From NCBI GenBank assembly GCA_022606425.2, contig JAHDVF020000890.1, positions 524,501-588,500 on the forward strand: a stretch of DNA of 64,000 nucleotides. The letters are read 5' to 3'. The position numbers and the translations under genes were made by a program. Origin of the DNA: Lepidostoma basale (lineage: Eukaryota > Arthropoda > Insecta > Trichoptera > Lepidostomatidae). Below, piece after piece: positions 29,921 to 58,660 of the stretch. The notes beneath the pieces were generated by a model. The model did not search any database and was not told the origin of the DNA. It was given only the letters and a program-made list of their open reading frames with translations. Every line of letters starts with the position of its first letter. The first letter of the stretch is position 1.

Positions 29921-30007
29921 GTGACTATCTTCTATCTATTTCCATTTTTCTTTTTTATTCACTTTGTATACACAACACTTATATTAAAAAATATATCTAT
30001 AAATGTA

Positions 30008-30038
30008 GACATGTTTCGGACAAACAGTCCTTCTTCAG
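30008..30038 (-). ncRNA. Hammerhead ribozyme core, HH-E left
   Basis: Read on minus: CTGAAGA (30038 to 30032), one extra A, stem II GGAC/GTCC with loop TGTTT, GAAA (ending 30014), CATG and TC, with cleavage expected after the C paired to 30008. All catalytic consensus bases are present: C3, U4, G5, A6, G8, A9, G12, A13, A14 and NUH. Stem III is only ACATGT, which is self-complementary. Stem I can form A-U and U-A next to the core, with AUGUA/UACAU further out. The extra A between A9 and stem II departs from the textbook core. Confidence 0.75.
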
Positions 30039-30275
30039 TAAAGATACATATTTATAAAAATATTATAAAATTGTTGTTGTTTACATGATCTGACAGATGT
30101 TATAAAGATTTATTTTGGAACGTTTATGCTTTCGTTATAACAAATATCATGATTAAATTGAATCATAATACTTGTTATAACAAAAGCATAAACGTTCCAA
30201 AATAAATCTTTATAACATCTGTCAGATCATGTAAACAACAACAATTTCATAATATTTTATAAATATGTATCATTA

Positions 30276-30306
30276 CTGAAGAAGGACTGTTTGTCCGAAA
30301 TATGTC
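30276..30306 (+). ncRNA. Hammerhead ribozyme core, HH-E right
   Basis: CTGAAGA (30276-30282), extra A, GGAC/GTCC stem II with TGTTT loop, GAAA (30297-30300), then TATGTC. It differs from the left arm by C15.2 to U, which still allows a wobble with G16.2. The catalytic consensus is otherwise complete. Confidence 0.7.
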
Positions 30307-30385
30307 TATATAATTTTAATTTTTTAATATACGAGTACCTAAGTGTTGTTTATATAAAGTGTATAAAAAATAAAAATAGAAATAA

Positions 30386-31832
30386 ACCATCATAACAACA
30401 CAAAGTATGGCGTATATAGAAGAAAATCTAATTTGAGTTTATGTATTATAGCTTAGGACAGACAGTGACAAGTTAGGCATTTTATATTAACCGTTGGATC
30501 TATACGTGGAATATGTAAATAACATTCTGCTTCAAAAAATGTCGAAACGCCTTGTGGTATTTCGTTGGATGTTATTATCAATAAAACATAATGTTAATAC
30601 GAAATAACTCAAACAGTTGATAATATTTCTATTTAGGAAAAGTACCGCCGTAAAAGTTTAAGTACGCGATCCGTATAGAGATTCAGCACATAAAAAGGCA
30701 CTCGGATACTTTTATATTTGCGATACTGACTCCAGCAATAATAAGTATTATCTCTATGCAGAGCTAATAAAATATTCCTCTCCGAGTATTTACGGCAGAA
30801 AAATGTCTAACACCCGCGGGAGATGAGAAAATTGAAACTATGAAAGCGTTTTCATTTAACCGAATAAGGATCTCCGGTACGGGCATTGTCTTTTGATAGA
30901 AAACCATCGGGAGTCACTTCCCGAGGCAAATCGAGGTGAAAGATGATACAAATAAAAACAAAGTGAGGTTTTCCGACCCTGCCTGAAGCTAAACTTCGAA
31001 CCTTTTACTTACAGCGGCCGGTCACCGGTCCGGACCATCTGTGTTTCGGGCGGTTTATCTCCGAAGCAATTCACGGAAATGTTTATCGTCTAAATATATA
31101 ACTTTTGTCCATTGATAAAAGGATACTTTGTCAGTTATGTGCGCGAGATTTTCTTTCCTCCAGAGAGATTTCTATTGGTATTCAAAAAAATATATGGAAG
31201 CGGAATAATACAATCGTAAAAAAATATACAACGCCCCTGTGCTCCCGGGCAGCGCCGTTTTCGGGATTAGCACTAAAAAGCAAAACATTTATTTCAAAGA
31301 GAACAGTTTAATCGCACTTACTGATGCCATATGATAAAAATGATAAAAGTAAAATGGGAAATGTTCCAAAACCGGGCACGGCTATTACATGCAATTGGGA
31401 CACTTGACGCGAGGAACGTGGGAGGTGAAATACGGGGGTTGTAAATTCTAAGTGAAAACTTTGTGATTCGTTTCCCATTGTGAGCGCGGGACGGTCCGTG
31501 GATCGCTGACAAATGGCGCCGGCAACTGGCAGCTACTGCCGGCAATTGGGACTCTTCTCGCTCCTCTGTCACGGCCGCATGAGCTCCGCAGTCACGTGGG
31601 CTTAAGGCAGGTGGATTTATTTCACGTGTGCATGGCTCAAGGCGCACGCGTGGAGCCGGTGGGTGTAGCAATCCGGTCACGATTTTACACTCAAATTTAC
31701 ATGGAATAAATATAACGCTTTCAATCTGAGTCTAGACTATTCGCAATTTAAAAATTCACCGCCCATTTGAAATAGATTATAAAATAAATTTAGCGCTTTA
31801 TATATGAAAACAACAGGGATCTACCACATACA
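30386..31832. other. Unique island, less AT-rich, possible host non-coding DNA
   Basis: It has no internal repeats and more even base composition than its neighbours, especially 30630-31700. It contains CACGTG-containing stretches (AGTCACGTGGGC near 31592, TTTCACGTGTGC near 31620) and a palindromic patch GCGGCCGGTCACCGGTCCGG near 31015. The open frames 31105-31311 (plus) and 31318-31680 (minus) lack known domains. It could hold enhancers or an unrecognised exon. Confidence 0.35.
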
Positions 31833-32030
31833 CCCGTATTGTGTTGATTACTACATTTGCAGTCCTAAAAAATGGTCCTGAACGGTGGATGGTTACATTT
31901 GCTGTCCATACAGCTTGTAGCGGTTATATCAGAACTATAGTGAAAAAGTTTATAAAATACATTTATATACGAACTGCAAATGCAGTCAGCCCCATTTCTT
32001 CGGACTGCAAATGTAGTTAAGTAGCACCAA
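31833..32030. repeat. F element remnant
   Basis: It carries inner F features: GATTACTACATTTGCAGTCC on the left; CGAACTGCAAATGCAGTCAG and CGGACTGCAAATGTAGTTAA on the right. The terminal TTAACCC block is degraded. Confidence 0.55.
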
Positions 32031-33104
32031 AGATTTTTTGCGAATCTTTGCTGCAAACCAATGCCTAAGATTGGAACTTAAAAAAGATGAATATTGAGAT
32101 CGAAATGTATCAACGAATTCAATGAAAATTAATACCTTATTCACAAACTGTTATTGAAGAATTCCTTTGCATTTAAAGGCATCAAAATCAAATAGCAATC
32201 CTTCAAATAAAGTCCACCAATAAAACCTTTAGCACGTGTTGTTTCTTTTGCATCGGGATTGAATATTTAAAAAAAATGATGTATTCGGAGTATGGAGCGC
32301 ACTTGATCGTTTGAGGATCACATAAACTGGCTGAAAATATTTACCCCGCGCAAATAAAAATGAAGGCTCTCCTGGGAAACATTTTGATTATTAAACGGAT
32401 ACCATTTTTTTCCGATGGAGCGTTTTTCCAACTCTCAAAGTTCAGCAACAATTTCGCACAAAGCGGCGCTTTTAATGCTGAAAATGAAAAGTGTGGGTTT
32501 TAGGGATACTGATATTATAAACTTCAAATATAATAAACGTAAAAATACCGCTCTGAAAGGGGATTTCTGAAGCTTTAATCGGGTTTCGCGTACAGCAGTA
32601 TGTTGTACAATCGATGAGAATATTATTTGTCGGAGAAAACGTTTATCGAAGTTCTTTGAAGCGATAAATGGTGGAAATCTAAATGTATTTGTTTCCCGAT
32701 TTACTTGGGAAAGTTTAAGATACGCCGAATTTGTCCATAGGCTACTCGTGACGCTTTCAAGCAGAATAAAAAAGATTGTACATACGTAAATGAATAAAAA
32801 CATAAAACTTCTGGCATATTTGACGACACGATAAAAGTAAAATCGAATATATTTTTGTGTGAAAAAATAAAAAAGTTATTTCACAATTTACAAATTTAAA
32901 AAATATCCCTAGACATTTTAAATACTGTAGTAAATATAATCATTTTCATTGAGGCGTATTATTTGTATGGACAAATAAATCCTGGATTTTTATTATTTTT
33001 CTTATATGATACCAGTAGGCTGTTTAATTTCGTCTACAAGTTGTATCAGTAGACAATAAAAAATGTAGAAAAATGTCTATAAATGTTATTTTATAAACTG
33101 TTAA
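32031..33104. other. Unique DNA, nothing recognised
   Basis: The open frame 32435-32803 (minus, 122 codons) gives a hydrophobic product without known domain. The region is not repeated in the window. Confidence 0.45.
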
Positions 33105-33152
33105 ATTAAAAAGCTTTGTTTTATATATCACAATTGTATTTTAATTTTACGC

Positions 33153-33188
33153 GACAGCTGTTTCGTCAATCTATGTTGACATCATCAG
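33153..33188 (-). ncRNA. Hammerhead ribozyme core, HH-B left arm
   Basis: Read on minus: CTGATGA, extra T, stem II GTCAA/TTGAC with an ATAG-containing loop, GAAAC, AGCTGTC. The full catalytic consensus is present. Stem III is the self-complementary ACAGCTGT, giving up to four pairs with no loop in trans. That fits cleavage as a dimer. Confidence 0.75.
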
Positions 33189-33207
33189 GTGTTACAATTT
33201 GTAACAG

Positions 33208-33243
33208 CGGATGATGTCAACATAGGTTGACGAAACAGCTGTC
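33208..33243 (+). ncRNA. Hammerhead-like core, HH-B right arm
   Basis: CGGATGA (U4 changed to G), extra T, stem II GTCAAC/GTTGAC (six pairs), GAAAC, AGCTGTC. The stem II second pair is U-A where the copy at 34659 has C-G. The U4 change should reduce or abolish activity. Confidence 0.6.
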
Positions 33244-33320
33244 GCGTAAAATAAAAATAACAGTTTATAATGTTTAAGTATCATAGTATTTCGGCCAAAA
33301 CAATAAACTATATGTTATTT

Positions 33321-33955
33321 TATATACTTAAAGATGGAGTTACGTCACAAAATTTCAATAAAAACATAAGGTTACTAAGAATAAAAGAAAATATACAAGG
33401 CACAAAGATAAAAGGCAATCCTTCAGTTTGTTTTTAAAACATCCAGGAAACATGAAACACGATTTTTTGGATCCATTAAACTGTCACAAATATAATAGTA
33501 CAAAATCGAAAATTCCGGCAATCCCATCTGTGTAGTATCATTGTTGTTCGCGTACTGTTTTGATTGGCTGTTGAAGCTTTCCAGAGGTAAAAACTGATGT
33601 AGTTCGAACACATGTCCAATCAACAGTTAAAATCACAATCAGAAAGGTGCTAATTGCCAATATGATAGTATTCTATAATACTTTTTTGGGGAGAAAAATA
33701 TTCTGAAAATATATATCTGATAAAAACTGTGTGGTTATTTAATAATTATGAATACGCCCGAGATGTATCATTATATAATTTTGTGTGTTTCAGCTTGTTA
33801 GTGCATGTCAAATTGGATTATTGGTAATATATTCTATTCTATTGTAGTATGTATTCCTTTTTATGTGCATTTATTTATTTTTCAACTAATAGATATTTGA
33901 TAATGATGTAACAAAGTTTATCCCGTTACTACCATAAAATATAATAAACCTTTTA
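33321..33955. other. Unique DNA, nothing recognised
   Basis: No coding family or repeat identified. Confidence 0.5.
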
Positions 33956-33959
33956 GAAA

Positions 33960-34325
33960 ATAGGCTTCTTCATTCAGAGAGTAAACACTGTCGGGACGAA
34001 ACATCTCCTAAGAACAGCTGAAATGAAAACATTGACCAATAGTGGGTAACCCTAAGAGTCGAAGAGATTCGCAGAACCTAACGAGGAGATTCGCAAAACT
34101 GCCAAGATTGATGACGTCGTGATATGGAGTAGCCGGAGAAAACGATTCTGGAAGGACCACATCGAGAGAATGGACACATCAAGGATTCCCAAGACCGTGA
34201 TGCACGAGACTCCGGAGGGCTATCGACCACCGAATACATGGAGACAAAGCTGAGTGTCTTCATCAATAGACCAAATTTGAAATCCTATCTAAATAGATCT
34301 ATTATAGATAAAGGAGAAGAAGCTT
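33960..34325 (+). pseudogene. T2 retrotransposon tail
   Basis: The pieces TAEMKTLTNS, then NEEIRKTAKIDDVVIWSSRR, KRFWKDHIERMDTSRIPKT and VMHETPEGYRPPNTWRQS follow T2 order. It ends with TAGATAAAGGAGAAGAAG. The initiating part is missing, and stops separate MKTL from the rest. Confidence 0.8.
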
Positions 34326-34339
34326 CTTCAATGATATTA

Positions 34340-34565
34340 AATATTCATTAATACAAATAAAAACGTCTGTTTTCAAAAAAATTGTTTATACTTTATGTGA
34401 ATGACATGTTTCACCTGTCTAAGGCATTATCAAATGTTTAATTTATCAATCAATTATCAATATCAAATATCAGATAATGTCTTAGACAGGCCCAACATGT
34501 CATTCACATAAAATATTATAAAACTTCTAGAAAACAGAAGTTCTCATTTGTATTAATTATTTAAT
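34340..34565. repeat. HH-A element, both arms
   Basis: Left AAAAACGTCTGTTTTC, TTATGTGAATGACATGTTTC, ACCTGTCTAAGGCATTATC; right AGATAATGTCTTAGACAGGC, CCAACATGTCATTCACATAA, CTTCTAGAAAACAGAAG. The plus core reads CAGATAA, T, GTCTTAGACAGGC, CCAACATGTC, so GAAA has become CCAA and it is inactive. Confidence 0.8.
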
Positions 34566-34760
34566 ATGGAATTAATTAAAAAGTCTATTGTTTTAGCCGA
34601 GACCCTATGATACTTCAACATTATTACAGTTAAAATTTAAACAAGTTTATTGTAACACCTGATGATGCCAACATCGGTTGGCGAAACAGCTGTCGCGACA
34701 CTCACAGTGAATAAAAATAAATTGTGATATTATAACAGAGTTTTAGAGAGACAATAAGAA
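34566..34760 (+). repeat. HH-B element, single arm
   Basis: It begins with the HH-B flank GCCGAGACCCTATGATACTT, AACATTATTACAGTTAAAAT, has one core, and ends TAAATTGTGATATTATAACAG. Unlike most copies it lacks the inverted arm. It abuts an HH-A element directly. Confidence 0.8.
34659..34694 (+). ncRNA. Hammerhead ribozyme core, HH-B single arm
   Basis: CTGATGA (34659-34665), extra T (34666), stem II GCCAAC/GTTGGC with ATCG loop, GAAA (34683-34686), CAGCTGTC. This is the cleanest HH-B core: all catalytic bases and six stem II pairs. Stem I is weak next to the core. The neighbouring copies at 33153 and 55066 give independent compensatory pairs. Confidence 0.78.
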
Positions 34761-35239
34761 ACAATAAATATTAAATGTGAAATTTGAAATGATCGTGCGA
34801 GAAACAACGAATATATTATCTCGAGTCGCAGCTGTACCCGAGTAAGAGAAATCAGGATAATAACGCATGGTAGGCCGGAGGAGCTAATATAAGGGCATCC
34901 ATTCGAACAAATGCGAATTTTATTTCCATACACATCCGAGCCGGGGAAGTAAAATAGGTATTCCGAAATGCTGTAGAATGTTCCTCTATCCCTTGGCTGA
35001 ATCGCCGAGCGCCGACTTGGGAGAAACTATAAAGCCGAGAAATAACAATGCCGCAGGAGGATAAAACCAAAACACGGTAAGATTATCCACATAAAAATAA
35101 TATAAAAAGATAGAATCGGCCCGAGACCCAATAATTGACCACAATAAAAATTCGGCGTGCTCGTCAAAGGGGCAGACGGAACATTAAACTAGAACCCGCG
35201 TCCGCGTCAGAAATCACTACCCTTTCTATACATACGTAC
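34761..35239. other. Unique DNA, nothing recognised
   Basis: It is less AT-rich between 34800 and 35220, with no domain in the open frames (34730-34933 and 34852-35070, minus). It may be host sequence. Confidence 0.4.
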
Positions 35240-35940
35240 CATAACTAACTGACTAACTAACCATCACGCCATTTCTCCGAAGGGGTAGGCAGAGAGGATG
35301 GATCGCCACAATGCTCTGTCCTGGTACACCTCTCGGGCAGTGGCGGTACTTCCATAGAAGCCCAGAAGCCCGGCTTGCGTATGAAATTTTTGAATTAAAA
35401 CCTCTTCTGGCTTACAAAGGTTCAGCTCTTGTGACTATTCCTCTTACGTCTGAAGGGAACATTGTTGGAAGGTGATTTGGTGGGTTGTTGGTTTATGCGG
35501 GGGCATGATTACTTAGATTTGGAGGTTTTGATTCAAGATTTCTTACGCAAGCCGGGCTTCTCTACATTCATACATCGTACCATGGACGCACGTCGATTAT
35601 TCCGACATCGAATGTGGCCGCTTTTTAGTAATTGATTAATTTGGTCATGCCATGTTTTCCTCGGTCTTCCTCGGCTTCTTTTTCCACTCACGCTGCTTGT
35701 GTACAACTTTTTAACCGTTCTACTCTCATCCATTCGTTCCATATGTCCAAAACATCTCAGGGATCCTTTATTAATTTTATCCATGATGCAGTCATCTGCC
35801 TTACATTTCTTTCTTATTTCATCGTTCGGTGTTCTATCATACAACGTTTTCCCGCACATTCTTCTTAGTGATCTAATTTCTACTGCATTCATCCTTCTTT
35901 TGCCAGCTCCAAGCTTCACTTCCATACATGAGGGTTGGCA
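35240..35940 (-). pseudogene. T1 retrotransposon C-terminal region, best-preserved frame
   Basis: The 130-codon minus frame (35533-35925) reads MEVKLGAGKRRMNAVEIRSL, RRMCGKTLYDRTPNDEIRK, KCKADDCIMDKINKGSLRCF, GHMERMDESRTVKKLYTSSV, and RGRPRKTWHDQINQLL. The conserved cysteines and the RGRPRKTW motif are those of the region after the RT thumb in insect endonuclease-RT proteins. The frame is broken by an inverted-repeat insertion at 35364-35561, and the tail resumes to the (GTTA)n terminus at 35243-35262 on plus. Confidence 0.85.
35364..35561. mobile_element. Inverted-repeat element carrying a J1 3' fragment
   Basis: The arms 35364-35404 and 35521-35561 are inverted (AGAAGCCCGGCTTGCGTA on the left, its complement on the right) for about 40 bases with few mismatches. 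The 116-base middle (CTTCTGGCTTACAAAGG to GGGGGCATGATTAC) is J1 3' sequence like 4430-4560. The element sits inside the T1 copy, and an extra CAGTGGCGGTACTTCCATAG lies outside the left arm only. Confidence 0.75.
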
Positions 35941-36907
35941 CTAGAACTCCATTGTGTACTGCCATCTTTGCTTCTGTGTACCATCTTAACACATATTAAA
36001 TAATTTATATAATAATATCATGGTGATTAATCTCAGTGCGTAAAATTTAAAATAAATATATACTCGTATTCATATAAAATAACGAAAAAATAAGAAATAT
36101 CTTTCTAATCTCAACTATACCAAAAAAAACATTACCAATAAACCAAAGTAGCTCCAGATAGCTTATGTTTATGACTTTCTGTTTTCCAGCTACTTACAGC
36201 GGTTCGAAAACACGGTATAATAAACTCGACTAAATGTACACAGTTAAATATCGATCACGTAAATAACATTAGTGAAATCCCTTAAATCACCTAAGAATTT
36301 TAGTCGAGGATACTCTACTGTACAGTTATCTTGCTTTTAGAATAAAAAAAGAAGTTTTATGATACTCTGAGATACGTGGGCGAAGGTCTAGTCTTGTAAG
36401 CTCATTTTTCAGTGAGCGTTTTATCGCCGCGGTATAGTACGCTCATCAAAAATCTCAAAGGTTTCTTATGAATTTGAAATAATAAGTCTGTTTAAATATA
36501 CTCGGTCAGAGCGATTTCGTTGATTCAAAAAAATCACTATCCTGAATCGTGGTTTTTTTGCAAGTTTTCTTGTGTGATATTCAAACCCGTGACAATTCCA
36601 AGAGTAAAAAAAAAAATGTATATACCTACACATCCAAAACGTAAATTGATACAAAAAAAAACCTACGCATGAGACGTGCGTGTATTCTTCAGGGTAGGTT
36701 TCACCGTAAATTTTACTGAAAAAAATCTACGTTAACAAAACATAAGTTGACATATTTGAATTAATCTAAATTTAAACGAAATATCTTTAAAAGCATATAT
36801 TTTAACTCGTTTAATTTAAACAATTCAAAGCTTTAAGAAATTTAATTCTAATTGTATTTTATTAGGAAAATTTATGGACAGTTTTATTATTAATTATTTT
36901 ACATGGA
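35941..36907. other. Unique AT-rich DNA, nothing recognised
   Basis: No repeat match. The open frame 36466-36654 (minus) has no recognisable domain. Confidence 0.5.
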
Positions 36908-37430
36908 TGAAACTAACTAACTAACTAACCATCACACCGTCTCTCCGAATGGGTAGGCAGAAAAAATGGACTGTCACACTTTAACCGATGCGGCACTCCA
37001 TCCTTCTCTTTTCGCCCCGCGGGAGACGCGGTGTGATTGGTTGCGAACCTCATCGCCACCAATAGGCATCTCCCGTGCACACTTCGATCGTTCAACATCC
37101 ACAAAAAAAATCTAAAACAAATAATATAAAGTACAATGATATAAAATAAAATAACAAAATAAAAATAATTTAAAACAAAATGTTATTTTTAGATGGTGCA
37201 CATATTGTCTGTTTAATTTATGTTCCACGTATCCACAGTTTTTTTTTAAATAAGTAATTTGATTGTAATTAGGCACTTAACACAAACCAACACCAGCAAG
37301 AACTTTAAAATAATATTGAAGAAATTATTCAAATTATCATTGGAACAAATGAAAATTTTATTTTTGCACCTGTCAAAATTCTTTATATAAACGAAAAAAC
37401 TTCTATAATTTTAACATCAAAACAGTACAA
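36908..37430 (-). mobile_element. L non-autonomous retroposon
   Basis: The T1-like terminus is at 36910-36990 (CTAACTAACTAACC, CATCACACCGTCTC), followed by GATGCGGCACTCCATCC, CCCGCGGGAGACGCGGTG, CATCTCCCGTGCACACTTCG and an AT-rich body. The 5' part to 37400 matches 28760-28880. No ORF. Confidence 0.8.
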
Positions 37431-39951: not shown

Positions 39952-39953
39952 TA

Positions 39954-41239
39954 TTAGGTCCTTACATATGAAATTGGCGTTTTGCCGTACTGGCAATTTT
40001 GATCTCAAATATCTTCTCTTTGGTTAGGAATTACAAATTCAAATTTATACAGCTATTTACTCAAATATTTGTGTTTCGAAAATTATTATTCAGTTGTATT
40101 TTCCTCAATTGTTTTTTTCTTTGCGTCACTCAGTTTACAAAATGGAAAACTTGAAATATCGCGTTATTTACGAGTACGAGTTCCACCGTGGCACCAGTGC
40201 TGCAGAAACGGCTCGAAGGATTAATGATGTGTATGGCGACGGTGCCGCAAAAGAAAACACAGTGCGTTTTTGGTTCCAACGTTTTCGTTCTGGAAATTTC
40301 GACCTGCAGAACAAGCCCCGTGGACGGCCGGAGACCAAAATTGATAATGAAGAATTGAAGGCTATTGTGGAAGCGGATCCATCGCAAACCACGTCCGAGT
40401 TAGCTGCAGGCGGCGGTGTTAGTGATAAAACTGTTTTAATCCACTTGAAGCAAATTGGGAAGGTGAAAAAGCTTGAAAGGTGGGTACCTCACGAATTGAG
40501 TGAAGCAAATCAACAAACGCGCGTTGACTGCTGCGTTGCATTACTCAACCGGCACAATAATGAAGGGATTTTGAATCGAATCATTACCTGTGATGAAAAG
40601 TGGATCCTGTATGATAATCGGAAGCGCTCATCGCAATGGCTGAACCCTGCCGAACCAGCCAAACCATGCCCCAAGCGAAAATTGACTCCAAAAAAGTTAC
40701 TTGTGAGCGTTTGGTGGACTAGTGCTGGTGTCGTTCACTACAGCTTTCTTAAATCTGGCCAGACGATTACGGCAGATGTCTATTGTCAGCAACTGCGAAC
40801 CATGATGGAAAAGCTAGCTGCTAAACAACCGAGGCTGGTTAATCGCTCTAGGCCACTGCTGCTTCATGATAACGCTAGACCACACACTGCACAACAGACG
40901 GCTACCAAATTAGAAGAGCTTCAATTGGAATGTCTAAGACATCCACCGTACTCTCCGGACCTTGCCCCAACAGATTACTATTTTTTTCGAAATTTGGATA
41001 ACTTCTTGCAAGGGAAAAAATTCAACTCCGATGGGGCAGTCCAAACCGACTTCAAAGATTTTATTGATTCCCGTCCGAATGTTTTTTTTAGTAAAGGGAT
41101 CGATGAACTACCTATGAGATGGCAAAAGTGCATAGATAGCAATGGTACATACTTTGATTTAATAAATATATTATATTTAAAAAAAATCAACTTTATGTTC
41201 CTCCCATACAAAACGCCAATTTCATATGTAAGGACCTAA
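39954..41239 (+). mobile_element. Complete mariner transposon, 1286 bp
   Basis: The terminal inverted repeats are perfect for 31 bases (39954-39984 and 41209-41239), beginning TTAGGTCCTTACATATG. TA lies directly outside each end (39952-39953, 41240-41241), the normal mariner target duplication. Length, TIR size and a single open transposase fit a canonical Tc1/mariner element. No stop, frameshift or insertion is present, and the TIR identity suggests recent insertion. Confidence 0.95.
40142..41239 (+). CDS. Mariner transposase (DD34D)
   Basis: This enzyme would cut and paste the element by binding the TIRs and inserting at TA. The 365-residue frame starts at ATG 40142; an in-frame ATG at 40094 would add 16 unusual residues, and MENLKYRVIYEYEFHRG looks like a mariner N-terminus. 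The N-terminal half has the paired helix-turn-helix region (about 1-110) with the GRP linker (KPRGRPETK, 58-66). WVPHEL is at 114-119. The catalytic triad is D151 (CDEKW), D243 (LLHDNARPHT) and D278 (PDLAPTDYYFF), with 34 residues between the last two. The family's usual end, NGTYFD, is at residues 334-339. This frame then runs 26 residues further and stops with TAA formed by the last three bases of the right TIR. Motif style suggests the mellifera/cecropia side of mariner, but the subfamily is a guess. All catalytic residues are intact. Confidence 0.95.
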   Translation: MENLKYRVIYEYEFHRGTSAAETARRINDVYGDGAAKENTVRFWFQRFRSGNFDLQNKPRGRPETKIDNEELKAIVEADPSQTTSELAAGGGVSDKTVLIHLKQIGKVKKLERWVPHELSEANQQTRVDCCVALLNRHNNEGILNRIITCDEKWILYDNRKRSSQWLNPAEPAKPCPKRKLTPKKLLVSVWWTSAGVVHYSFLKSGQTITADVYCQQLRTMMEKLAAKQPRLVNRSRPLLLHDNARPHTAQQTATKLEELQLECLRHPPYSPDLAPTDYYFFRNLDNFLQGKKFNSDGAVQTDFKDFIDSRPNVFFSKGIDELPMRWQKCIDSNGTYFDLINILYLKKINFMFLPYKTPISYVRT

Positions 41240-41241
41240 TA

Positions 41242-42517: not shown

Positions 42518-43335
42518 TTAGTTTATATCGTTCTTCCGATGATGAAGGTATAAAGCCTTCAGCGATAAACGGATAGCCTTATTTTGCAGAATTTGGAGTT
42601 TTCGTATGTGACTCGAAGCTGCATAGCCCCAGATTGGGGCTGCATAAGTGAAGATCGGCCTTATGACCGTTTTGTATATCAGGAGTTTATTGTCGGTGCT
42701 TAGTTTACTGTTTCTAGCTAACATTGGGTAGAGGGCTGAGATTGCTCTTGATGCGGCTTTGACTTTATTTGTAATGATTGGCTTCCATGTCAGCTTAGAA
42801 TCCAAGGTAACCCCAAGGTATTTGATTGTTTTGGTCCAAGGAACGTCTTGGCCGAACATTTTTATGTTGGGAATGTTTGGAGGAATGTGTCTTTTACTGA
42901 AAAGGGTCGCTGCGCTTTTACTCGGGTTGATGGTAATGCGCCAGTTTCTGCACCACGCCTCTAGCACATCGGCCTGTTTTTGCACCCTGCGGGTCGCGAG
43001 AAGCGGCCTTTTAGAACTGGAGATGATGCCCGTATCGTCAGCGAATCGGGCAATGTGGGTGTTCTGATCTCGGGGAAGAGGGATATCACTGCAGTAGATG
43101 TTGAACAGAGTAGGAGCCAATACTGAACCTTGGGGAACTCCTGCTCTGTCAGGGCGCACAAGGGATTTGACCTTGTTGATTTTGAGGCTGAAAAGGCGAT
43201 CGGACAGAAAGCGGGCTATGAGTTGAATCATAGGCATTGGAATGTTTGCTTTTCCCATTTTGTATAATAGGCCGGTGTGCCAAACGCGGTCAAATGCTTT
43301 ACGAACATTTAGGGAAAATAACAATTCTGGAAAGA
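42518..43335 (-). pseudogene. J1 Jockey-like reverse transcriptase, 5'-truncated, open
   Basis: The 268-codon frame covers RT motifs in order: A (FSLNVRKAFDRVWHTGLL), the IQLIARFLSDRLF helix, B (AGVPQGSVLAPTLFNIY), C (ARFADDTGII), D (WRITINPSKSAATLFSKR), E (KYLGVTLDSKLTWK), then thumb (IYKTVIRPIFTYAAPIWGYA). These are the palm and thumb of a Jockey-clade non-LTR RT. It ends abnormally at LKALYLHHRKNDIN, whereas the copy at 4427 continues. In motif A the catalytic Asp of the usual LDVxKAFD is Asn, so it would be inactive even if expressed. The fingers, endonuclease and ORF1 are absent, and the 5' truncation lies exactly before motif A. The frame has no stops, so it is fairly young. Confidence 0.9.
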
Positions 43336-44204
43336 ATACTCACTGAAGTCGAAATATTTGGGATCCTTTTGAGATACTCGTATATTATTTCCTAGTTTCA
43401 TGTCGATATTGTAATTTTGTTTACTATTTGTGTCCAAATAAGTCGCCTAAATGCTTTTCGTTTGTTATCATTAGTGTATAAGAAAAAAATCCTTATCGAT
43501 AGTTGAAACAATTAAACTTTAAATAAGTAGGTGTGTAGTTGTGTGGCCACAAACTAAATACTTGTAATATTAAACTGGTTCGCTCTATAGCAATGTCCAG
43601 TGACACCTCGGAAACAAGACCATTTGCCTCGTAAAAGCCATTTATATAGCTTTTTAGCTTGTAAATAAATTTCGTTAAAATCAGTACGATTTAACCACAT
43701 TCCGTAGAGCACGATAAACTTAAAATTACAAATTATACAGCCCAACTTGTTGACCAATCAATTCATACAAAAGCGATAATTAAAAATGTTAATTTACGGC
43801 GGAGAGGAAATTTTCGTATGCTGAGGTCGTTGAAACGTGGCTACAGCATAAAATTTAATATCTCCATATAAAATTTGTTTTACATAGTAATTCAAAAAAC
43901 AAACGGCCCATAATTTATCACAGAGTGACCGAACATATTATTCTATGTAGTAGCTACCGAACTGGGCTAACTGATTTTATTGTATGAATCGCGATGTCAT
44001 GTTAAATGGGTGTAAATGAAAACTTCACGCAAAACAGTGATGTTAGAGAAGGGGTCAATATTTTCGTGGATTAAATAACAAATAGAGAAAAAAACGGAAT
44101 TTAAATTCAAAACCGAGCAAGAAGTTTGCTTATTATTTAAAAATGAAGAAAACGTACATTTAAGAGGCATCATCATATCTAAATTTGATTCGATCATTGT
44201 TATG
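43336..44204. other. Unique AT-rich DNA, nothing recognised
   Basis: Open frames 43554-43757 and 43997-44197 (minus) have no domains. No repeat match within the window. Confidence 0.5.
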
Positions 44205-47745: not shown

Positions 47746-47749
47746 TTTA

Positions 47750-48815: not shown

Positions 48816-48827
48816 AAACTTGGTCTA

Positions 48828-49040: not shown

Positions 49041-49159
49041 CACGGTACCGAAAGACTAAGAATTGTGGGTAGTGTAAAGGCGAAACGGCGTTTTTTAAAA
49101 TATTCGCATTACACAATAATAATGTGGAGAAAACAACGTTAATAGTGGAGTCACTATTG

Positions 49160-50690: not shown

Positions 50691-50724
50691 CTATTCAAAT
50701 ATCAAATAAAAAAACCCGTTTACA

Positions 50725-50757
50725 CTGATGAAGGGCTTATGTGTCTCGAAACATGTT
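50725..50757 (+). ncRNA. Hammerhead ribozyme core, HH-E-like solo
   Basis: CTGATGA (50725-50731), extra A, stem II GGG/CTC (three pairs, one G-U), GAAA (50748-50751), CATGTT. The cleavage base is U, allowed by the NUH rule. All core bases are present. The 5' flank GTTTACA and 3' flank TTTTTGTAAA can pair (TTTACA/TGTAAA) and extend stem I. No partner arm is evident downstream. Confidence 0.65.
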
Positions 50758-51044
50758 TTTGTAAATTATAATAAAATTTATGATAATATAATATATTTTT
50801 TAAATATTATTCAAAAACAACTGCTAAAAAAATTAAGAATGACATTTTGTAATACTGTACAAAAAATTATTCCGAATATTTTGTATTTAACATTTGTTTG
50901 GACGTCCTTCTGCATTGTGAATTAGAAATAACTGAAAAAATAACCGAGTTGAGTATAAAACAAGAATTTAAATGGTTAGATCGAAAGATTTAAAATACTC
51001 ATAGAATAAAATTTGTACTGAAAATATATAATATCTATGAAGCA

Positions 51045-51230: not shown

Positions 51231-51699
51231 AAGTGTCACACACATTGTTTCAATCCATAAAAAAACATGAATATTTATAAAAAAAATATTTTAAAATATT
51301 ACATATTTCCCTAGATATACGAGATGTGATGTGTTTAAGCACGCGTAAAACCAAATAAACACTTTCCTCTATATTCACTTTTTCTTTGTATTGTAAATCC
51401 ACATTTAGATTTAAATAAAAAAAACTTTATTTTTATAGCACTCACTTTTTTTTTTAAATATATTCCATACTTAACAAACATGCTCCAGGCGAATACTATT
51501 ATTGTTGAGTTTTTTTAGCTCATAAAAAAATCTTAATAAAAATATGTTTTGTAAAAAAAGTATTTATTATTCCGACGTGATTCAAAGGTAGTATTATATA
51601 ACTTCATATAACAAAGAACGAATTCCATAGTGTCTTGAGTTTATCAAAAATCGCAAGTGTTAACTGTTCTATATTCACAATCTCTTTGAGCTGTGTGTT

Positions 51700-51910
51700 C
51701 ACATTTGAATGATTTATTTGAAAATGTTTTTCTGTACAATTTTTTTTTTACTTTTCACATATATGTTTCGGGCCACAGACGCCCCTTCCTCTGTGTAGAA
51801 AAATGTCTACACTGAAAAAGCACGTCTGTAGCTCGAAACAGGTTTGTGAAAAGTGCAAAAAAAGTTTTGTTTAATAGAATGTTTTCAAAAAATCATTCAA
51901 ATGTTTTAAC
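51700..51910. repeat. HH-E2 palindrome with two divergent cores
   Basis: The outer arms are CATTTGAATGATTTATTTG and AAATCATTCAAATG, the inner CTTTTCACATATATGTTTCG and CGAAACAGGTTTGTGAAAAG. The minus core (about 51760-51794) reads CAGAGGA, A, GGGGC..GGCCC, GAAACATATATG. The plus core (51813-51845) reads CTGAAAA, A, GCAC..AGCTC, GAAACAGGTT. Each has at least one core change. Confidence 0.75.
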
Positions 51911-52289
51911 TGTATTTCTGTGCATAAATATAAATTATATCGTAATATAAAGTAATGTCTATAAATCTATGTACAGTTCTCGGTATTCTGGGCGAGTATG
52001 AGGCCCGAGGTTACGGATTATTAAAATACGGAGTCTGCAAAAAACGTTTACAGTTATGACACTATTACATTCGTTGGTGTTCAGAAGTTCAAATTGCGTT
52101 GCTCGTATGGGTTATTTTTTAGTCATTTAGACACCTATAGAAGACTTTAATTGTTGGTACAAGTAAGAAAATAAAAATGTTTTGAATTTATTTGTTTCTT
52201 TGATTTTAAAAATACCTTTTCAATATAAGCTTATCGAACTTATACAAAATAAGATTCGTAAGACGATAAGAGTATTATAACCTATTATA
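51911..52289. other. Unique DNA, nothing recognised
   Basis: A modestly GC-richer patch (TCGGTATTCTGGGCGAGTAT, GAGGCCCGAGGTTACGG near 51980-52020) is not assignable. Confidence 0.45.
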
Positions 52290-52565
52290 ATATTTAATAC
52301 GATAAGACAATTATAACTTTATAACATATGGAACGAACAGTGTGAGTGGAAAGAGAAGCCATGGCAGACCAATGTAAGCATAGCATGACCAAATTAACAA
52401 AATACTAAAAGACAGCCTCATTCGAAGTCGGAAAAATCGACAAGCGTGCATATTACGACGTATGAACGTACAGGAATCTCGAGAGGTATGTCAGGACAGA
52501 GCAGTTTGGAGGTTCTTACTCTCTGCCTACCTCAATGTGAAATGGCATGATGGTTAATTAGTTAC
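52290..52565 (+). mobile_element. T1 retrotransposon 3' region
   Basis: It has the VSGKRSHGRPM subfamily remnant (GTGAGTGGAAAGAGAAGCC), then CAKHSMTKLTKY, AKSDKRACIxRRMNVQESRE and the AGCAGTTTGGAGGTTC, CTCTCTGCCTACCTC tail ending GTTAATTAGTTA. Confidence 0.8.
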
Positions 52566-53078
52566 TTTAAACAATTTTAAAAGAAGTCATTATTCACGTT
52601 CCTATGGTTAATACTACCTACAAAATTTTATACAAATAACATGAACATATCTGTCGATGGAATAAAAATTATAATAATACAGAAAAAATTAGGTTAATTC
52701 TTTTTTGCATATTTTTGTACCTCTCAATTGAAAATAAGAGTAATATTATATGGCATGATCAATTTTCCAGCACCCAAATAAGGGTTAAAGTGTAAACATA
52801 AATAATAGGTACTATTTACTAAATTTCAAATAAAACCATTTTTTCTTTGAAAACGTACTTGTATAAAAAAAAAACGATAGTAAAAAGCATTTAAGGCACT
52901 GGAATACAACTCTTTCGTTCTTTATAATTTAATGAATTACATATTATTTCGTTTAAATCTACATTTGATTATAGTTTATAATAAAAAAACATCTTTTGTT
53001 TGCAAATGTAGTACTTTTGTAAAAATAAATTGTGTAATTTTTTATTTAACAATAATGAAAAGCTTTTAAGACCCTAAT
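52566..53078. other. Unique AT-rich DNA with a 44.2-kb-type repeat trace
   Basis: GGTTAATACTACCTACAAAA, ATAACATGAACATATCTGTC and GATGGAATAAAAAT match the inner part of 44260-44330 at low identity. No gene is seen. Confidence 0.45.
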
Positions 53079-53391
53079 AGGCGGGCCACACTGTGATAAA
53101 CAAACTGGTTTGAAACCAAAATTTGTATACTGAATGTTATTACTCAAACTTAAACCATGTTCTAGTCGTAGTAAAAACGTCGATTTTAGTAAACCATGAG
53201 TTAAACCGCGGATGTTTCTGCATACGGTTATCCTTTCAAACTATTCAACAAACATGGTACGTTTATCTCTCTTCCTCGCATTATTTTACCCGGCGTAGAA
53301 TGAGATAGAAGCCCTATACAAGACAAATTTTATGTTTGTTCTAGTCTGGCTCGTTGGTGGAAACCGATGTTTATCACAGTGTGGCCCGCCT
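53079..53391. mobile_element. MITE-1 with about 25-bp terminal inverted repeats
   Basis: The ends AGGCGGGCCACACTGTGATA (left) and TATCACAGTGTGGCCCGCCT (right) are perfect inverted repeats extended by AACA/TGTT. The 313-bp body has no transposase. The small open frame inside (53123-53308) is not significant. The outer bases are TAAT on the left and TTAA on the right, so a TTAA target is possible but not shown. Confidence 0.85.
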
Positions 53392-54063
53392 TTAAGTAAC
53401 AAACATTTCGTTTTACATCGTTTTATGAATTTTCTGTAAATTTAATCGACATTTAATTGCGGCTTTAATTTGAAACTCATTAATTAACAGTTGTCAAATA
53501 GTCTCATTTGAAAACAAAATGGCGCATGGCGTTAACAATAAGCGATACTATGACGTAATCCATTTTGAGAAACGATACTTTTCAATTTCTTAACACGGCG
53601 CAAAATTCGAGTTGCCCGAGGCAATATATTCGCCGGTCAATACATCACGGGTCAGATCTGGACGGATATTGGGACTGGGTGATGAATGGACCGAGGCAGG
53701 GGTCAAGCAGTTGTGTGGTCACTTCTCGCACACACATGCACCGTGTAGTCAGCTGCAGCGAATTGAGAGGTCACGAACTCTTAAAGCACGATCCTTGCGA
53801 AGTTCTTACCCGGGTTGAAAAAAGGATCGTATTCATGGACACCTCTGTTTTACCCTCTGCCTGCTACGACTGACATTAGTCAGATTAATAAGTCGTGCGC
53901 ATCGGGATCTCGAATGCGTGTTCATTGATTCTTAAGAAAATACTGATATTATTAATTTTTGCTGTAATGATTTCGTTTGTAAGAAAATAACGAATTAAAA
54001 GTGACATTTTAATCAAAATACGTCGAGTTGAGACGATAAATTATTATGTAAGGTTAGAAGTCT
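53392..54063. other. Unique DNA; GC-richer 53510-53900
   Basis: The patch contains overlapping plus frames (53565-53873, 53612-53818) without recognisable domains. It could be host sequence. Confidence 0.4.
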
Positions 54064-54338
54064 TAAAGCCGTGCCACAATGTTTTAAACAAGCTCTCCAC
54101 CGGCGGTTTAAAACTGTGTAGACACTTGTTTGAAACCAAAATTCGTTTGACATTCAACAAACTTTGTGGACGGACCCGCATAGTATGCGTGTGGATCCAC
54201 CGTTTAAACACGCATTCCACATATGGAGAGCTTGTTTACAACAGTATGTGGACGCTACACCAACCGTGGGCTCCACAGCTCTCCTCCAAGGTCACCCCTG
54301 TGGAGAGCTTGTTTCAAACAGTGTGGCACGGCCTTTAG
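54064..54338. mobile_element. MITE-2 with about 37-bp terminal inverted repeats
   Basis: The left end TTAAAGCCGTGCCACAATG and the right end CAGTGTGGCACGGCCTTTAG pair over about 37 bases with few mismatches, including the inner AACAAGCTCTCCAC/GTGGAGAGCTTGTT. A third GGAGAGCTTGTTTAC lies mid-element (54225). The end motif GxGCCACACTGT is shared with MITE-1, suggesting related transposases. Non-coding. Confidence 0.85.
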
Positions 54339-54409
54339 CATTTATTATACTTTACAACTAAAACATATCGAGCATAAAACGTGAAAAAAACACAGCACAA
54401 ATATCGATA

Positions 54410-54610
54410 TAGTTAATTAATACGAACGAAAACGTCTGTTTTCTAGTTTGTTTTCATGTTTCGCCTGTATAAGGCATTATAAAATATGATAATGCCTTAG
54501 ACAGGCGAAACATATCATCCACATTAAATATAATAAAACTTCTAGAAAACAGACGTTTTCATTCGTATAAATTATTTAATATGGAATTTTAAATCATTGT
54601 TTAAGAAGCA
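54410..54610. repeat. HH-A element, both arms
   Basis: GAAAACGTCTGTTTTCTAG, CATGTTTCGCCTGTATAAGG, TATGATAATGCCTTAGACAG, GCGAAACATATCATCC, CTTCTAGAAAACAGACG, TTCATTCGTATAAATTAT. The plus core (54486-54516) reads ATGATAA, T, GCCT/AGGC with TTAGAC loop, GAAAC, ATATC. Position 3 is A opposite A8, so the core is probably weak. Confidence 0.8.
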
Positions 54611-54959
54611 ATAAATATATCGATAAATTATAGTTTGTTAAAATTTCTATAAAACGGACGTTTTCACCAATATAAAATACCAAAAAAATACATACGTATA
54701 AAGTAAATATAGTTTACTTTACATGATTTATATGTTAAAGAGATATTATGTTTAGAATTCCCTCATACAGCTACTATTTGAAATGACTTGTACTTAATTG
54801 AATAATGAGATGTAGAAGGAAATAAATTCTCTAAGGCATTATCAAATGTAGCGAAAAATCGAACGCGTTGCTCTTGATATATATAAGAAAAGGAGCAGAA
54901 TACGACAGTTAAGTTTTTTATGTGCCCCAATACATTGTTTAACTTTTATTTGATAGATG

Positions 54960-55200
54960 ATCCATTTTTTTGGGCGGAAACACTTTGATATTTCAACATT
55001 ATTAACTGTTTAAATAAAAACACTGTTATAAAATATCACGATTTTATTCCTTTCGAAATTTTCGCGACAGCTGTTTCGCTAACCGATGTTAGCATCGTCA
55101 GGTGTTACAATCAACTGGTTACGATGCTAACGTCGGTTAGCAAAGCAGCTGTCGCGACAATTTCGAAATAAATCGAATAAATTGTAATATTTTACTTGAT
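54960..55200. repeat. HH-B element, both arms
   Basis: The HH-B flank GGCGGAAACACTTTGATATT leads into inverted arms around TGTTACAATCAACTGGTTAC. The left arm keeps a perfect core (below). The right arm is worn (GTTACGA, and GAAAC changed to AAAGC). Confidence 0.85.
55066..55101 (-). ncRNA. Hammerhead ribozyme core, HH-B
   Basis: Read on minus: CTGACGA, extra T, stem II GCTAAC/GTTAGC with ATCG loop, GAAAC, AGCTGTC. Every catalytic position matches consensus. Stem II has U-A at the third pair where 34659 has C-G, a compensatory double change. Confidence 0.78.
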
Positions 55201-55317
55201 AATAATTAGATAATCAAATGATTTTACTGAAATCTCTTGATGGAAGTTCATTTTAAATAATAATTAAATAAAACGATGATTTTTAACTACTTCCACTTTG
55301 GTCTTTATTTCGACAGC

Positions 55318-55350
55318 GACCGGTTTCGCCAGGCTCGCTGGCATCGACAG
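55318..55350 (-). ncRNA. Hammerhead-like core, HH-C left
   Basis: CTGTCGA, extra T, GCCAG/CTGGC, GAAA, CCGGTC. Its only conserved-core deviation is A6 to T, which is fixed in the better HH-C copies. Stem I pairs CAGT with GCTG. Confidence 0.6.
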
Positions 55351-55391
55351 ACTGGTCAAACTCTTAAAAAACAGACTGGTCACAAACCAGT

Positions 55392-55424
55392 CTGTCGATG
55401 CCAGCGAGCCTGGCGAAACCGGTC
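55392..55424 (+). ncRNA. Hammerhead-like core, HH-C right
   Basis: CTGTCGA (55392-55398), T, GCCAG/CTGGC, GAAA, CCGGTC. Stem I is formed by CAGT (55388-55391) with GCTG (55425-55428): three Watson-Crick pairs and one G-U. Stem III is the self-complementary ACCGGT. The three-way junction is complete, but A6 is T. Confidence 0.6.
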
Positions 55425-55499
55425 GCTGCCGAAATAAAGACAAAAGTGGAAGTCGTTAAAAAAACATCGTTTTATTTAATTATTATAATATAATATGAT

Positions 55500-55640
55500 A
55501 ATTAGATTTTGTAAAATATGTCATTTACATAAAATATATTAAAACTTCTAAAAAACAGACGTTTCCATTCGTATTAATTATTTAATATGGAGTTTTACAT
55601 CATTGTTCAAGAAACAATAAATGATCTCTTTTAATATATT
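55500..55640 (+). repeat. HH-A right arm and tail
   Basis: GTAAAATATGTCATTTACAT, AAAACTTCTAAAAAACAGAC, GTTTCCATTCGTATTAATTA, TTTAATATGGAGTTTTACAT and CATTGTTCAAGAAACAATAA. The core is missing; this is the outer part only. Confidence 0.75.
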
Positions 55641-56004
55641 CATATTCCTTCGCTTGTAGAACTGAGATAAAAATAGGCTAGCCAAGTTTTGTACCGCAAT
55701 ATTAGTTTAGTTGGAGGAAAAAGGAATCCAACTTTATTGCTCTACCTTGCATGTGTCGCCCGTCTAACCGCCATTTTTTCTCACCGCCTCACAAAGGAAG
55801 CTATTACACCGTCTTATTTTAAAAGCATTGTTTTTATTAACCACACATTGAACATGTTAGTTCATTTCCACATCACTAATAATAATCCCCTTTGAAATAA
55901 ATAACTTTCTCCAGTAAACCATAGAGAAATATGTATTTTTCGTGCATTAACTGTGTTTCTATTGGTGTACTAAGCACATTGAAACAATGTATTTACTAAT
56001 TTAT
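55641..56004. other. Unique DNA, nothing recognised
   Basis: The open frame 55689-55895 (plus) has no recognisable domain. Confidence 0.45.
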
Positions 56005-56255
56005 TTATCGATGTAGGGATATGCATTGCGAGGATGAAGTGGCAGTGGGCTGGTCACGTGTATCGACGGGATGATGGAAGATGGAGCCAGTGGGTTACTG
56101 AATGGAGGCCAAGGTTGGGCCGGAGAAGTATCGGGAGACAGCCAACCAGCTGGAGCGATGATATTTTGCGGATGGCGGGAAGGGCCTGGAGAACACTGGC
56201 GAGAGACCGAGAGGGATGGCGTTGGGGTAGAGAGGCTTACGTCCAGCAGTGAATG
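56005..56255 (+). pseudogene. T3 retrotransposon C-terminal tail, open frame
   Basis: The 72-codon frame reads MKWQWAGHVYRRDDGRWSQW, VTEWRPRLGRRSIGRQPTSW, SDDILRMAGRAWRTLARDRE and GWRWGREAYVQQ, then stops. This is a clean T3 C-terminus and defines the natural end of the protein (EAYVQQ). The upstream part is missing, and no GAA tail follows. Confidence 0.85.
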
Positions 56256-56579
56256 GAGACAAGCTGACGAAATTTACGACAAAGATACGATATTGCATAC
56301 GATTATTTTTTTCGGCATAAGTTTCACCTTATATGACATAATTAGAAATACGGATCTGTGGAATTTTAACATTTTTAAAATTATATTATAAGATACGATA
56401 CGTGTATTCTAAAAATATATCACAATATTTGGTTTACCCCATTCACAAATAAATGTTTTCGTTAACCCTGCGTGGACAGGGGACGGACGGAAAAATGCTA
56501 GAATGAAACAATTTTATTTTTACCAATATTTTTTTTACATCACAGATCTACCATGAGAAAAAAATTATCGTCATATTAA

Positions 56580-56860
56580 ATAGTTCATTGTGTTGACCGA
56601 AACACTACGATACATCATTATAAACTGTTAAAAATCTAAACGCTGTTACCGTATCACAATTTTTTTTACAACTGCTGTTTCGCCAATCGATGTTGTCATC
56701 AGCAGGTGTAACAATAATCTCTACATATACGAAAAAAAAATTGTTACACCTAATGATGTCAACATCGGTTGGCGAAACAGCTGTCGCGAAAAATAAAAAA
56801 ATAAAAAATAAATTGTGATACAATAACAGCGTTTTAAATTTTAACAGTTGAGGTCGTTAA
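56580..56860. repeat. HH-B element, both arms
   Basis: Flank TTGACCGAAACACTACGATA; left minus core CTGATGA with a broken stem; right plus core at 56750-56785: CTAATGA, T, GTCAAC/GTTGGC (one U-G), GAAAC, AGCTGTC. G5 to A makes the right core inactive. Its U-G pair is the intermediate between the C-G and U-A states seen elsewhere. Confidence 0.8.
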
Positions 56861-58329
56861 TTATTTAAAACATTTATAATTCGTAAAATATAAATGTTCC
56901 TCGTTTTTAAAATCTTTCATATTTAAAAATAGAATACCTGCACTTAATTGATTAGTTATCCGACACCATTCGTTCTTTATATCTTTTGATCACACTATAA
57001 AACGTAACAAAGTAAAATCAACTCTTTAAAATGACTGTGTAATAGGCGCATACGACCGAAAGCGTAACGAAATAACACAAAGCACTTTAGCAAGTGGCTT
57101 TATTATCCACGTACGTACGTGTAAATATGTAAAATAACAGTAAAGCGAACTGGGACCGCCGCGACCTGCAAACGGAAAACGCCATTTTGTTTAGATCCTT
57201 TGCATAAGAAATCAGAAATGCCAAGGGATCGAAAATACGCGATACGGAAACCTCAGCATTTTTCTAAATAAAACGAATACTAAGTGAAACATTAAAAAGG
57301 ATCAAAAGCATTACTCATCAAATTATTGAACATATCTCCGACATGTATGTATACAGAATGAACAAATTGTTTGTGTGGGCATTTAAGAGAAAAAAATAAT
57401 TACACCTGAGCCGTTCGTTACTTTTGAATGTGGAATAAGTCCACTTTTGAAAAAAAAATATGTAATAGTAATTTTGGAAAGTTATTGATAATTAATTATT
57501 CCTGACATATTTCTCTCGCTTCCTCTTTTTATGTTTATAATTATACTTTCAATAGACCACGACTTCTTCTATGAATTAATCAATTAAAAAAACGTGTAAA
57601 ATGTAAAGCCAAAGTACGAGTATATAAAATGTGGACAAATTCTCCTCTTGTTTTTATTACTATATTTATTGAAAGTAGAATAAGTCCATTAGGAGTTAAA
57701 CTTTCATTTTGTTTAATCATCACAATCATCATTATTACATTTTAAAGTTTAACAAAATAATAGTGGTAAAAACATCATTCGAATGTTGAACATTTTTATT
57801 ATTTTTTTAATATGAAGTCTCCGAGGAGGTAAAAAATTACATTGAATACTGATTTCCACAAAATTTCGTAACGTTAATTCAACAAAGAAATGACAAATTA
57901 CACTCAATTACGAGTAGGGAGGAACATTTTTATAATAATTACATACAAATTTCGTGCCTAAATTAGGAAAAGATAAAAAAAAATATAATTTCATTGAATT
58001 GCCCTGAATAGTAAAATCTATTATATAATACCATATTTTCGTGGGTAAAACACAGACTAATTCCGTAATTTTTAGATTGCCTACCAAGGTAGACTAATAG
58101 CATGTATTTAGATTATCGATTTGATAAGTATTATAGATTTGTGTACAAAGAAAATAGATTATATAAATAAATGTGAACCAATCAACAAACGTGTTCGTGT
58201 GAAATAACCATCAAGTTTCTAAATTATTAGACTAATTTACTAGAAAATGGACATTTAGATGTTACAGTAAAATTTACCCCAAACAATATTTAACCCCGAT
58301 AAGTTCAAAATAAACCAAACAAAAAATAT
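56861..58329. other. Unique DNA, nothing recognised
   Basis: It includes GTACGTACGTG near 57110 and a non-repetitive patch 57040-57300. A short TTCCTGACATATTTCTCTCG fragment near 57500 is T1-like. No gene is seen. Confidence 0.45.
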
Positions 58330-58405
58330 CGCAATCACGCCGTTTCCCCGAAGGGGTTGGCATTTAGAAGAAACACGATGCTCTTCTATTCTAACATACT
58401 TGAGA
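58330..58405 (-). mobile_element. T1 3' tail fragment
   Basis: GCAATCACGCCGTTTCCCCG, AAGGGGTTGGCA and GATGCTCTTCTATTC match the T1 terminus in reverse. Only about 75 bases remain. Confidence 0.65.
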
Positions 58406-58429
58406 AGATTTATACGATTGGTATTAATA

Positions 58430-58660
58430 TGTTTTTTGGGATCTTGGGTATATCCGTGTAACTTGTCATTCTCGACCAACGATTCGAAGATCGTTGCAGT
58501 CTCCATTTTCAGGGTTATTACATAAGTGTGGTCGGTGGATGCTTAACTCAAGTTAAGCATTATAACAACACTGAAGATGGAGACTTCAACAATCTTCGAA
58601 ACGTCGGTCAAGGACAAGTTACACGGATATACACAAGATCCCAAAAAAACATCTAAAATG
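58430..58660. repeat. HH-H palindrome with divergent cores
   Basis: The outer arms are TGTTTTTTGGGATCTTGGGT, ATATCCGTGTAACTTGTC and their near complements GACAAGTTACACGGATATAC, ATCCCAAAAAAACA. A second perfect hairpin ATGCTTAACT/AGTTAAGCAT (58539-58560) sits at the centre. The mirrored peptides KLHGYTQDPKK in both orientations are an artefact of the palindrome, not genes. Confidence 0.8.
58571..58605 (+). ncRNA. Hammerhead ribozyme core, HH-H right
   Basis: CTGAAGA (58571-58577), extra T, stem II GGAGA/TCTTC (five pairs, one G-U) with a nine-base loop, GAAA (58598-58601), CGTC. Stem III is only ACGT, two pairs with no loop, so any cleavage should need dimerisation. All core bases match. The left arm (minus, about 58478-58512) reads CTGAAAA and GAATC and is worn. 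Confidence 0.68.

Follow-up and report, generated by a model that had tools for sequence, protein, structure and literature searches.

Palindromic repeats with minimal hammerhead motifs in the trichopteran Lepidostoma basale as probable remnants of Penelope-like elements

A 64,000-nucleotide stretch of the Lepidostoma basale genome (contig JAHDVF020000890.1, positions 524,501 to 588,500; hereafter the window) contains several families of short palindromic repeats that carry small hammerhead ribozyme motifs. These repeats are very probably remnants of several families of Penelope-like elements (PLEs), that is, short pseudo-long terminal repeats (pseudo-LTRs) each holding a minimal type I hammerhead motif in which stem II is accompanied by a palindromic stem III and the quality of stem I varies. 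At the level of sequence it can be demonstrated that the motifs exist, that the repeats are laid out as inverted pairs, that one family (F) has a one-sided tail, that two families (F and C) share pseudo-LTRs with PLEs, and that one type of core, counted genome-wide, has an extra base. The repeats are of a known kind, as minimal hammerheads in PLEs, their proposed action as dimers and their abundance have already been published; the point of interest is the uniform extra nucleotide.

A first-pass annotation of the window listed seven cores with full hammerhead consensus. Their coordinates and strands are correct, and each contains CTGANGA and GAAA, with UH after a self-complementary stretch. 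A strict descriptor (exact CTGANGA, zero or one extra base, 4 or more contiguous pairs in stem II, then GAA, a palindromic or hairpin stem III, and H) found 7 matches in the 64 kb; a set of 200 first-order Markov sequences averaged 0.05, or 0.025 for a palindromic stem III alone. Annotated cores account for six of the 7 matches; owing to a G-U pair in its palindrome, the one at 30276 was counted with stem III parsed as a hairpin. The remaining match, at 23543 with a 29-base loop, is probably due to chance. The annotated core at 50725 has all the motifs and falls below the strict threshold, its own stem II not reaching 4 contiguous pairs; it was recovered in a one-mismatch scan only via a different parse. 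Permitting one mismatch gave 12 window matches against 0.96 in 25 Markov sequences, among them decayed copies of family B and copies of family F, together with a match at 4179 that probably arose by chance. On these counts a chance origin of the motifs was rejected. Searches of the window with Rfam models detected no hammerhead, either at gathering score or in the set of 18 matches reaching E=10.

Delimitation with nhmmer and blastn gave five families (A, B, C, D and F) at 14 loci, of which A and D have one each, B six, C two and F four. The annotated cores, described as belonging to at least three unrelated families, fall in four, A to D; the fifth family, F, whose core reads CTGTCGA (A6 changed to U), had been overlooked. 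Clear outward-pointing inverted pairs are formed at 9 of the 14 loci (A, four of B, one of C, D and two of F), and the others are single arms or arms with weak partners. The single family A element matches itself at 86.6% over 417 columns. In family F, a tail of about 50 bp is found at one end only of the loci starting at 13923, 26923 and 55208, and the cores at 55350(-) and 55392(+) combine CTGTCGA with a stem I of 4 pairs, a stem II of 5 and an ACCGGT stem III. An 89-base arm from the family B element at 34550 had at least 64 matches in the genome at 79-100% identity, with 40 of 918 first-look candidates scored. A nucleotide search with family F, by a program that passes over very common words, gave no match. 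By eye, insertion ends lie in AT-rich or microsatellite DNA, and no clear target-site duplication, which in PLEs varies in length, was assigned.

This layout bears on the possibility that the repeats are small metazoan retrozymes, tandem hammerhead units that spread via circular RNA. Type I hammerheads with a weak stem III in small elements are common to retrozymes and the repeats described here (PMC7229834, PMC7761336). Metazoan retrozymes are, however, tandem repeats of 150-450 bp (PMC7229834), whereas Tandem Repeats Finder detected no array in the window with a period above 29 bases and the repeats mostly form outward inverted pairs. The same orientation prevails elsewhere in the genome: among the first 100 of the 6,047 places that carry one stem type (counted below), 15 pairs of neighbours lie no more than 1 kb apart, of which 14 are outward (-,+), one is (+,+) and none is inward. 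The retrozyme interpretation was rejected on the lack of tandem units in the window and on the inverted pairs, and retains hardly any probability.

The link to PLEs comes from coding copies in the same genome. Published PLEs have inverted pseudo-LTRs, which also flank 5′-truncated copies, and may carry a tail 30-40 bp long (PMC3846280, PMC11167929). A genome search for GIY-YIG domains scored at least 150 matches of 541 candidates, 12 of them sharing a score of 29.6 bits, and 20 of 150 scored matches were taken for study of the surrounding locus. Loci L050 and L051 each contain an open reading frame (ORF) of 758 amino acids, which in L050 holds RVT_1 at 302-478 followed by GIY-YIG at 651-734 and is flanked on both sides by outward-pointing F-type hammerhead motifs. 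The arms of L051 are 453 bp long and 99.6% identical; their match ends where a tail starts, and the tail is present on the direct arm only. As in published PLEs, an ORF with reverse transcriptase (RT) and C-terminal GIY-YIG domains, inverted pseudo-LTRs and a tail thus occur together with the family F repeat, the F tail in the window being about 50 bp against the published 30-40 bp. Window F arms have best matches of 92-96% to PLE pseudo-LTRs (one listed match, L068, is at 76%) and match 23 of the 40 partly overlapping loci L030-L069. For family C the coding evidence is GIY-YIG only: in L058, outward C-type hammerhead motifs stand on either side of a GIY-YIG ORF, and family C is 72-79% identical to this locus.

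Because families F and C match pseudo-LTRs that flank GIY-YIG ORFs, they are taken to be PLE remnants, and comparison with these loci gives good support to their mobilisation by PLE enzymes. Families A and B are assigned to PLEs by layout and motif, and D by layout, motif and a reading frame that is open in both arms from the ATG of stem II (METATIFES... on the minus strand at 58258-58542, METSTIFETS... on the plus strand). Family A has matches of 75-86% in PLE-bearing loci such as L058, its membership in the PLE itself not being established. The earlier proposal of elements of the Penelope kind is in this way tied to PLE ORFs for F and C, and for A, B and D extends to layout and motif only. 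Several observations count against a PLE origin. Over 5.3 kb that include flanking DNA, L050 is 98.8% identical to L051, so the two may represent a single insertion that was duplicated or is present as two alleles; a Pfam scan of seven window ORFs gave no PLE coding match; an ORF partner was established for none of A, B and D, and D had no match to PLE loci. Furthermore, the stem II ATG in L050 meets a stop after 11 codons, so it is not the start of the 758-amino-acid ORF there. With these points included, a PLE origin of the repeats and their mobilisation by PLE enzymes are still considered highly likely.

Table 1. Hammerhead-bearing repeats in the window (positions are those of the window; a point in the strand column marks elements with arms on both strands)
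Position	Strand	Family	Description
676..780	-	F	Arm with decayed core, overlooked in first-pass annotation
13923..14080	+	F	Arm with decayed core; one-sided tail ~14025-14080; 94.9% to L051 over 157 columns
16122..16232	-	B	Arm with decayed core TTGATGA; weak partner on opposite strand
21452..21656	.	B	Inverted pair, decayed core CTAATGA
26923..27189	.	F	Inverted pair, tail at left end; left arm 93.7% to L051 over 158 columns
29934..30394	.	A	Palindromic element, two outward arms with a core in each; nhmmer arms 30156-29934(-) and 30158-30394(+)
30008..30038	-	A	Core, left arm
30276..30306	+	A	Core, right arm; one G-U in stem III
33097..33305	.	B	Inverted pair; intact core 33153-33188(-); partner 33208(+) decayed, CGGATGA
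34550..34755	+	B	Core 34659-34694(+), 6-bp stem II, CAGCTG stem III; weak partner arm
50712..50828	+	C	Lone arm; core 50725-50757(+), imperfect stem II
51692..51904	.	C	Inverted pair, decayed cores, absent from first-pass finding; related to repeats in L058/L059
54970..55191	.	B	Inverted pair; core 55066-55101(-)
55208..55487	.	F	Inverted pair, tail at left end; left arm 96.2% to L051 over 158 columns
56586..56849	.	B	Inverted pair, decayed cores CTAATGA and CTGCTGA
58402..58678	.	D	Inverted pair (nhmmer arms); core 58571-58605(+)

In an intact core, CTGANGA (in F, CTGTCGA) is followed by a single extra base and stem II, then by GAAA and a palindromic stem III, which reads ACATGT, ACAGCTGT, ACGT or ACCGGT. 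The extra base sits between A9 and stem II. Families B, D and F have an ATG where stem II begins, and the extra base supplies its T. Cores were collected from the window and 48 loci of the same genome (289 kb, overlapping), distinct core-plus-flank strings being counted once. With zero to three inserted bases scanned, exactly one extra base was present in all 31 distinct strict cores, a non-random sample because the loci were picked through the B and GIY-YIG searches. Across the 768.8-Mb assembly, and for one stem type only (a GGAC..GTCC stem with ACATGT), 6,047 cores have one extra base and 5 lack it; a reversed-pattern control returned 0. Phage contigs show both forms under a similar test, which indicates that the test is not blind to the ordinary form. 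In comparison with a type I hammerhead, the invariant CUGANGA / GAAA / UH core is present in the 31 distinct cores, which were selected for it, and stem II is in all 31 separated from A9 by the extra base rather than directly next to it.

These results can be set against a reading of the repeats as ordinary DNA-transposon miniature inverted-repeat transposable elements (MITEs), whose hairpin ends would resemble hammerheads by accident. MITEs have terminal inverted repeats that a DNA transposase recognises, and target-site duplications of fixed length. The families described here are short AT-rich palindromes (a matching transposase was looked for only by Pfam, on the seven window ORFs), A, B and D have no established coding partner, and stem I is short in the same three families. 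Accidental resemblance is, however, difficult to reconcile with a motif far above chance and a reversed-pattern count of zero, with the recurrence of the same one-base spacing across unrelated families, and with the match of F and C to PLE pseudo-LTRs. The plain MITE reading was rejected for these reasons and is regarded as very improbable. Repeats that would likely be filed as MITEs, and that Rfam hammerhead models do not see in the window, can accordingly be retroelement hammerheads.

Whether the PLE motif behaves as a working ribozyme is a separate matter. Within the arms, conservation is higher in the hammerhead block than in the DNA after it, at 89% against 65% for A, 85% against 46% for B, 71% against 54% for C, 85% against 65% for D and 84% against 79% for F, a contrast that AT-rich, indel-prone downstream DNA inflates and in which a few rows are 1-3 bases off register; one B arm was excluded. 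Stem II of family B has 90.7% paired cells and two compensated pairs in 9 rows (rows taken from the same inverted pair being non-independent), and a modest covariation score of 0.269 against 0.163 that is reached by 3 of 500 shuffles. Some cores have a stem I of 4-6 contiguous pairs with differing sequence, for example at L041, L047 and L056. Folding as monomers produced all three stems in none of seven stretches; among seven cores tried as dimers, L041 alone has a predicted minimum free energy structure that shows all three stems, in the form of a double hammerhead.

Other features of the motif speak against catalysis. CTGA is substituted in 5 of 8 window copies of B and also in the excluded ninth arm, and the two B stem II pairs changed on both sides are equalled by 134 of 500 shuffles. 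The A6U change of family F, to which the long ORFs belong, departs from the invariant core and is present in 32 of 32 otherwise exact copies from 19 partly overlapping loci. Stem I has only 0-2 contiguous pairs in 24 of the 31 distinct cores (0 in 5, 1 in 13, 2 in 6, 3 in 2, 4 in 1, 5 in 2 and 6 in 2), and in the window the pairs adjoining the core number 2 in both A copies, 1 in three strict B copies and 0 in D. A viroid hammerhead is reported to be weakened when its core has an extra base (PMC11014351). In the Poseidon element PAc of Anolis carolinensis, cleavage requires protein, and hammerhead mutants leave insertion in vitro unaffected (PMC11167929).

The A6U change, the short stem I of A, B and D, the reported effect of an extra base and the PAc mutants all favour an alternative that shares the PLE identity of the repeats and differs on the ribozyme only: the hammerhead would be vestigial or repurposed, as an RNA structure for the PLE protein or as start-codon context, with little or no cleavage. 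The conservation of the core block, the cores with a longer stem I of different sequence and the L041 dimer count against this alternative, which is a serious one even if somewhat doubtful. Cleavage, whether current or past, is at most slightly favoured on the sequence evidence, and a role for it in mobilisation can be suggested. The first-pass proposal that the elements are or were mobilised through self-cleaving RNAs holds with respect to PLE-type elements, and its self-cleavage part goes beyond what the A6U cores of F and the short stem I of A, B and D support.

Under the preferred explanation, in which the repeats are PLE remnants with minimal hammerhead motifs, the palindromic stem III would form well only between two copies of the repeat. 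The RT and endonuclease of PLEs may copy repeat RNAs in trans, and the palindromes could arise from insertions that were truncated or self-primed. With less confidence, it can be envisaged that hammerheads act in pairs, with help from the PLE protein, to cut transcripts that are tandem or paired. A more specific idea is that an entire PLE hammerhead lineage carries a fixed extra base between A9 and stem II (in several families the U of an AUG), which would tune the ribozyme down to cleavage solely as a dimer that the PLE protein holds at the start codon, and would couple RNA processing to translation or template choice; this is speculative and rather unlikely.

Cervera and de la Pena in 2014, and Lunse, Weinberg and Breaker in 2017, reportedly described PLEs with minimal type I hammerheads. 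In chrysanthemum chlorotic mottle viroid, an extra A lies between A9 and stem II. The plus-strand hammerhead of this viroid, with its extra A in the core (PMC3705267), provides a natural example of one additional core nucleotide, although in an unrelated context. Minimal hammerheads have been found in PLE pseudo-LTRs at thousands per genome, with action as dimers proposed (PMC7761336). The repeats described here resemble them in their pseudo-LTR location, near-absent and dimer-suited stem III and thousands of dispersed copies, and differ in that the window copies lack an ORF and the F core has A6U. The extra base is present in 31 of 31 cores here; a literature search found no statement of an extra base for PLEs in the accessible text, which is weak evidence, the published consensus not having been compared. 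In PAc the ORF starts at stem II and the cut lies 26 bp further (PMC11167929), and the corresponding distance here, counted from the A of the ATG, is 27 (F), 29 (D) and 30 (B) bases. AT-rich surroundings of the insertions are a further likeness. Unlike PAc, for which protein-assisted cleavage was demonstrated, the present repeats are known from sequence alone, and the stem II ATG of L050 does not open the long ORF. Thousands of copies that fit one intact core pattern, ORF-bearing PLEs that share the pseudo-LTR and a near-uniform extra base in one genome offer a good test bed for whether cleavage matters.

With regard to viral sequences, a pattern specific for family B matched no viral contigs and a D-like pattern matched 21. 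Thirteen IMG/VR contigs (L005-L011, L013, L015, L016, L018, L020 and L021) contain hammerhead-like motifs, with CTGATGA and one extra T before stem II, as well as ACGTC; their stem II is 5-7 bp in 12 of 13 and 2 bp in L008, and several by eye have an apparent stem III hairpin and a stem I. The form without the extra base is present in contigs L070-L088. At the Rfam gathering threshold no hammerhead was found in six IMG/VR contigs tried, L005 scoring 16.2 bits with Hammerhead_II, under the cut-off of 37. In some IMG/VR contigs the ATG seems by eye to open a short reading frame.

The first and third strongest GIY-YIG matches of the L. basale assembly lie in ORFs of 623 (L052) and 621 (L053) amino acids; no hammerhead match was obtained near these ORFs, which could be bacterial-type genes. 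The window also contains an ORF for a Mariner/Mos1-type transposase (HTH_48 and Transposase_1 by Pfam) at 40142-41203(+) and a Jockey-like RT fragment at 42518-43339(-). Among the best 120 of 263 matches to the latter, the named organisms are spiders, butterflies, moths, beetles, bugs and aphids; arthropod jockey elements are included, and three listed matches are labelled bacteria, perhaps through contamination. An additional palindromic repeat family, with copies at 34347-34557, 7977-8104, 54487-54613, 62699-62828 and other positions, had no hammerhead in the one-mismatch window scan. Many related copies of another repeat occur at 29842-29918, 25563-25627, 28320-28388, 36912-36982 and elsewhere in the window; one copy is followed by a GTTAGTTAGTTAG tail, and the repeat is likely the 3′ end of a long interspersed nuclear element.

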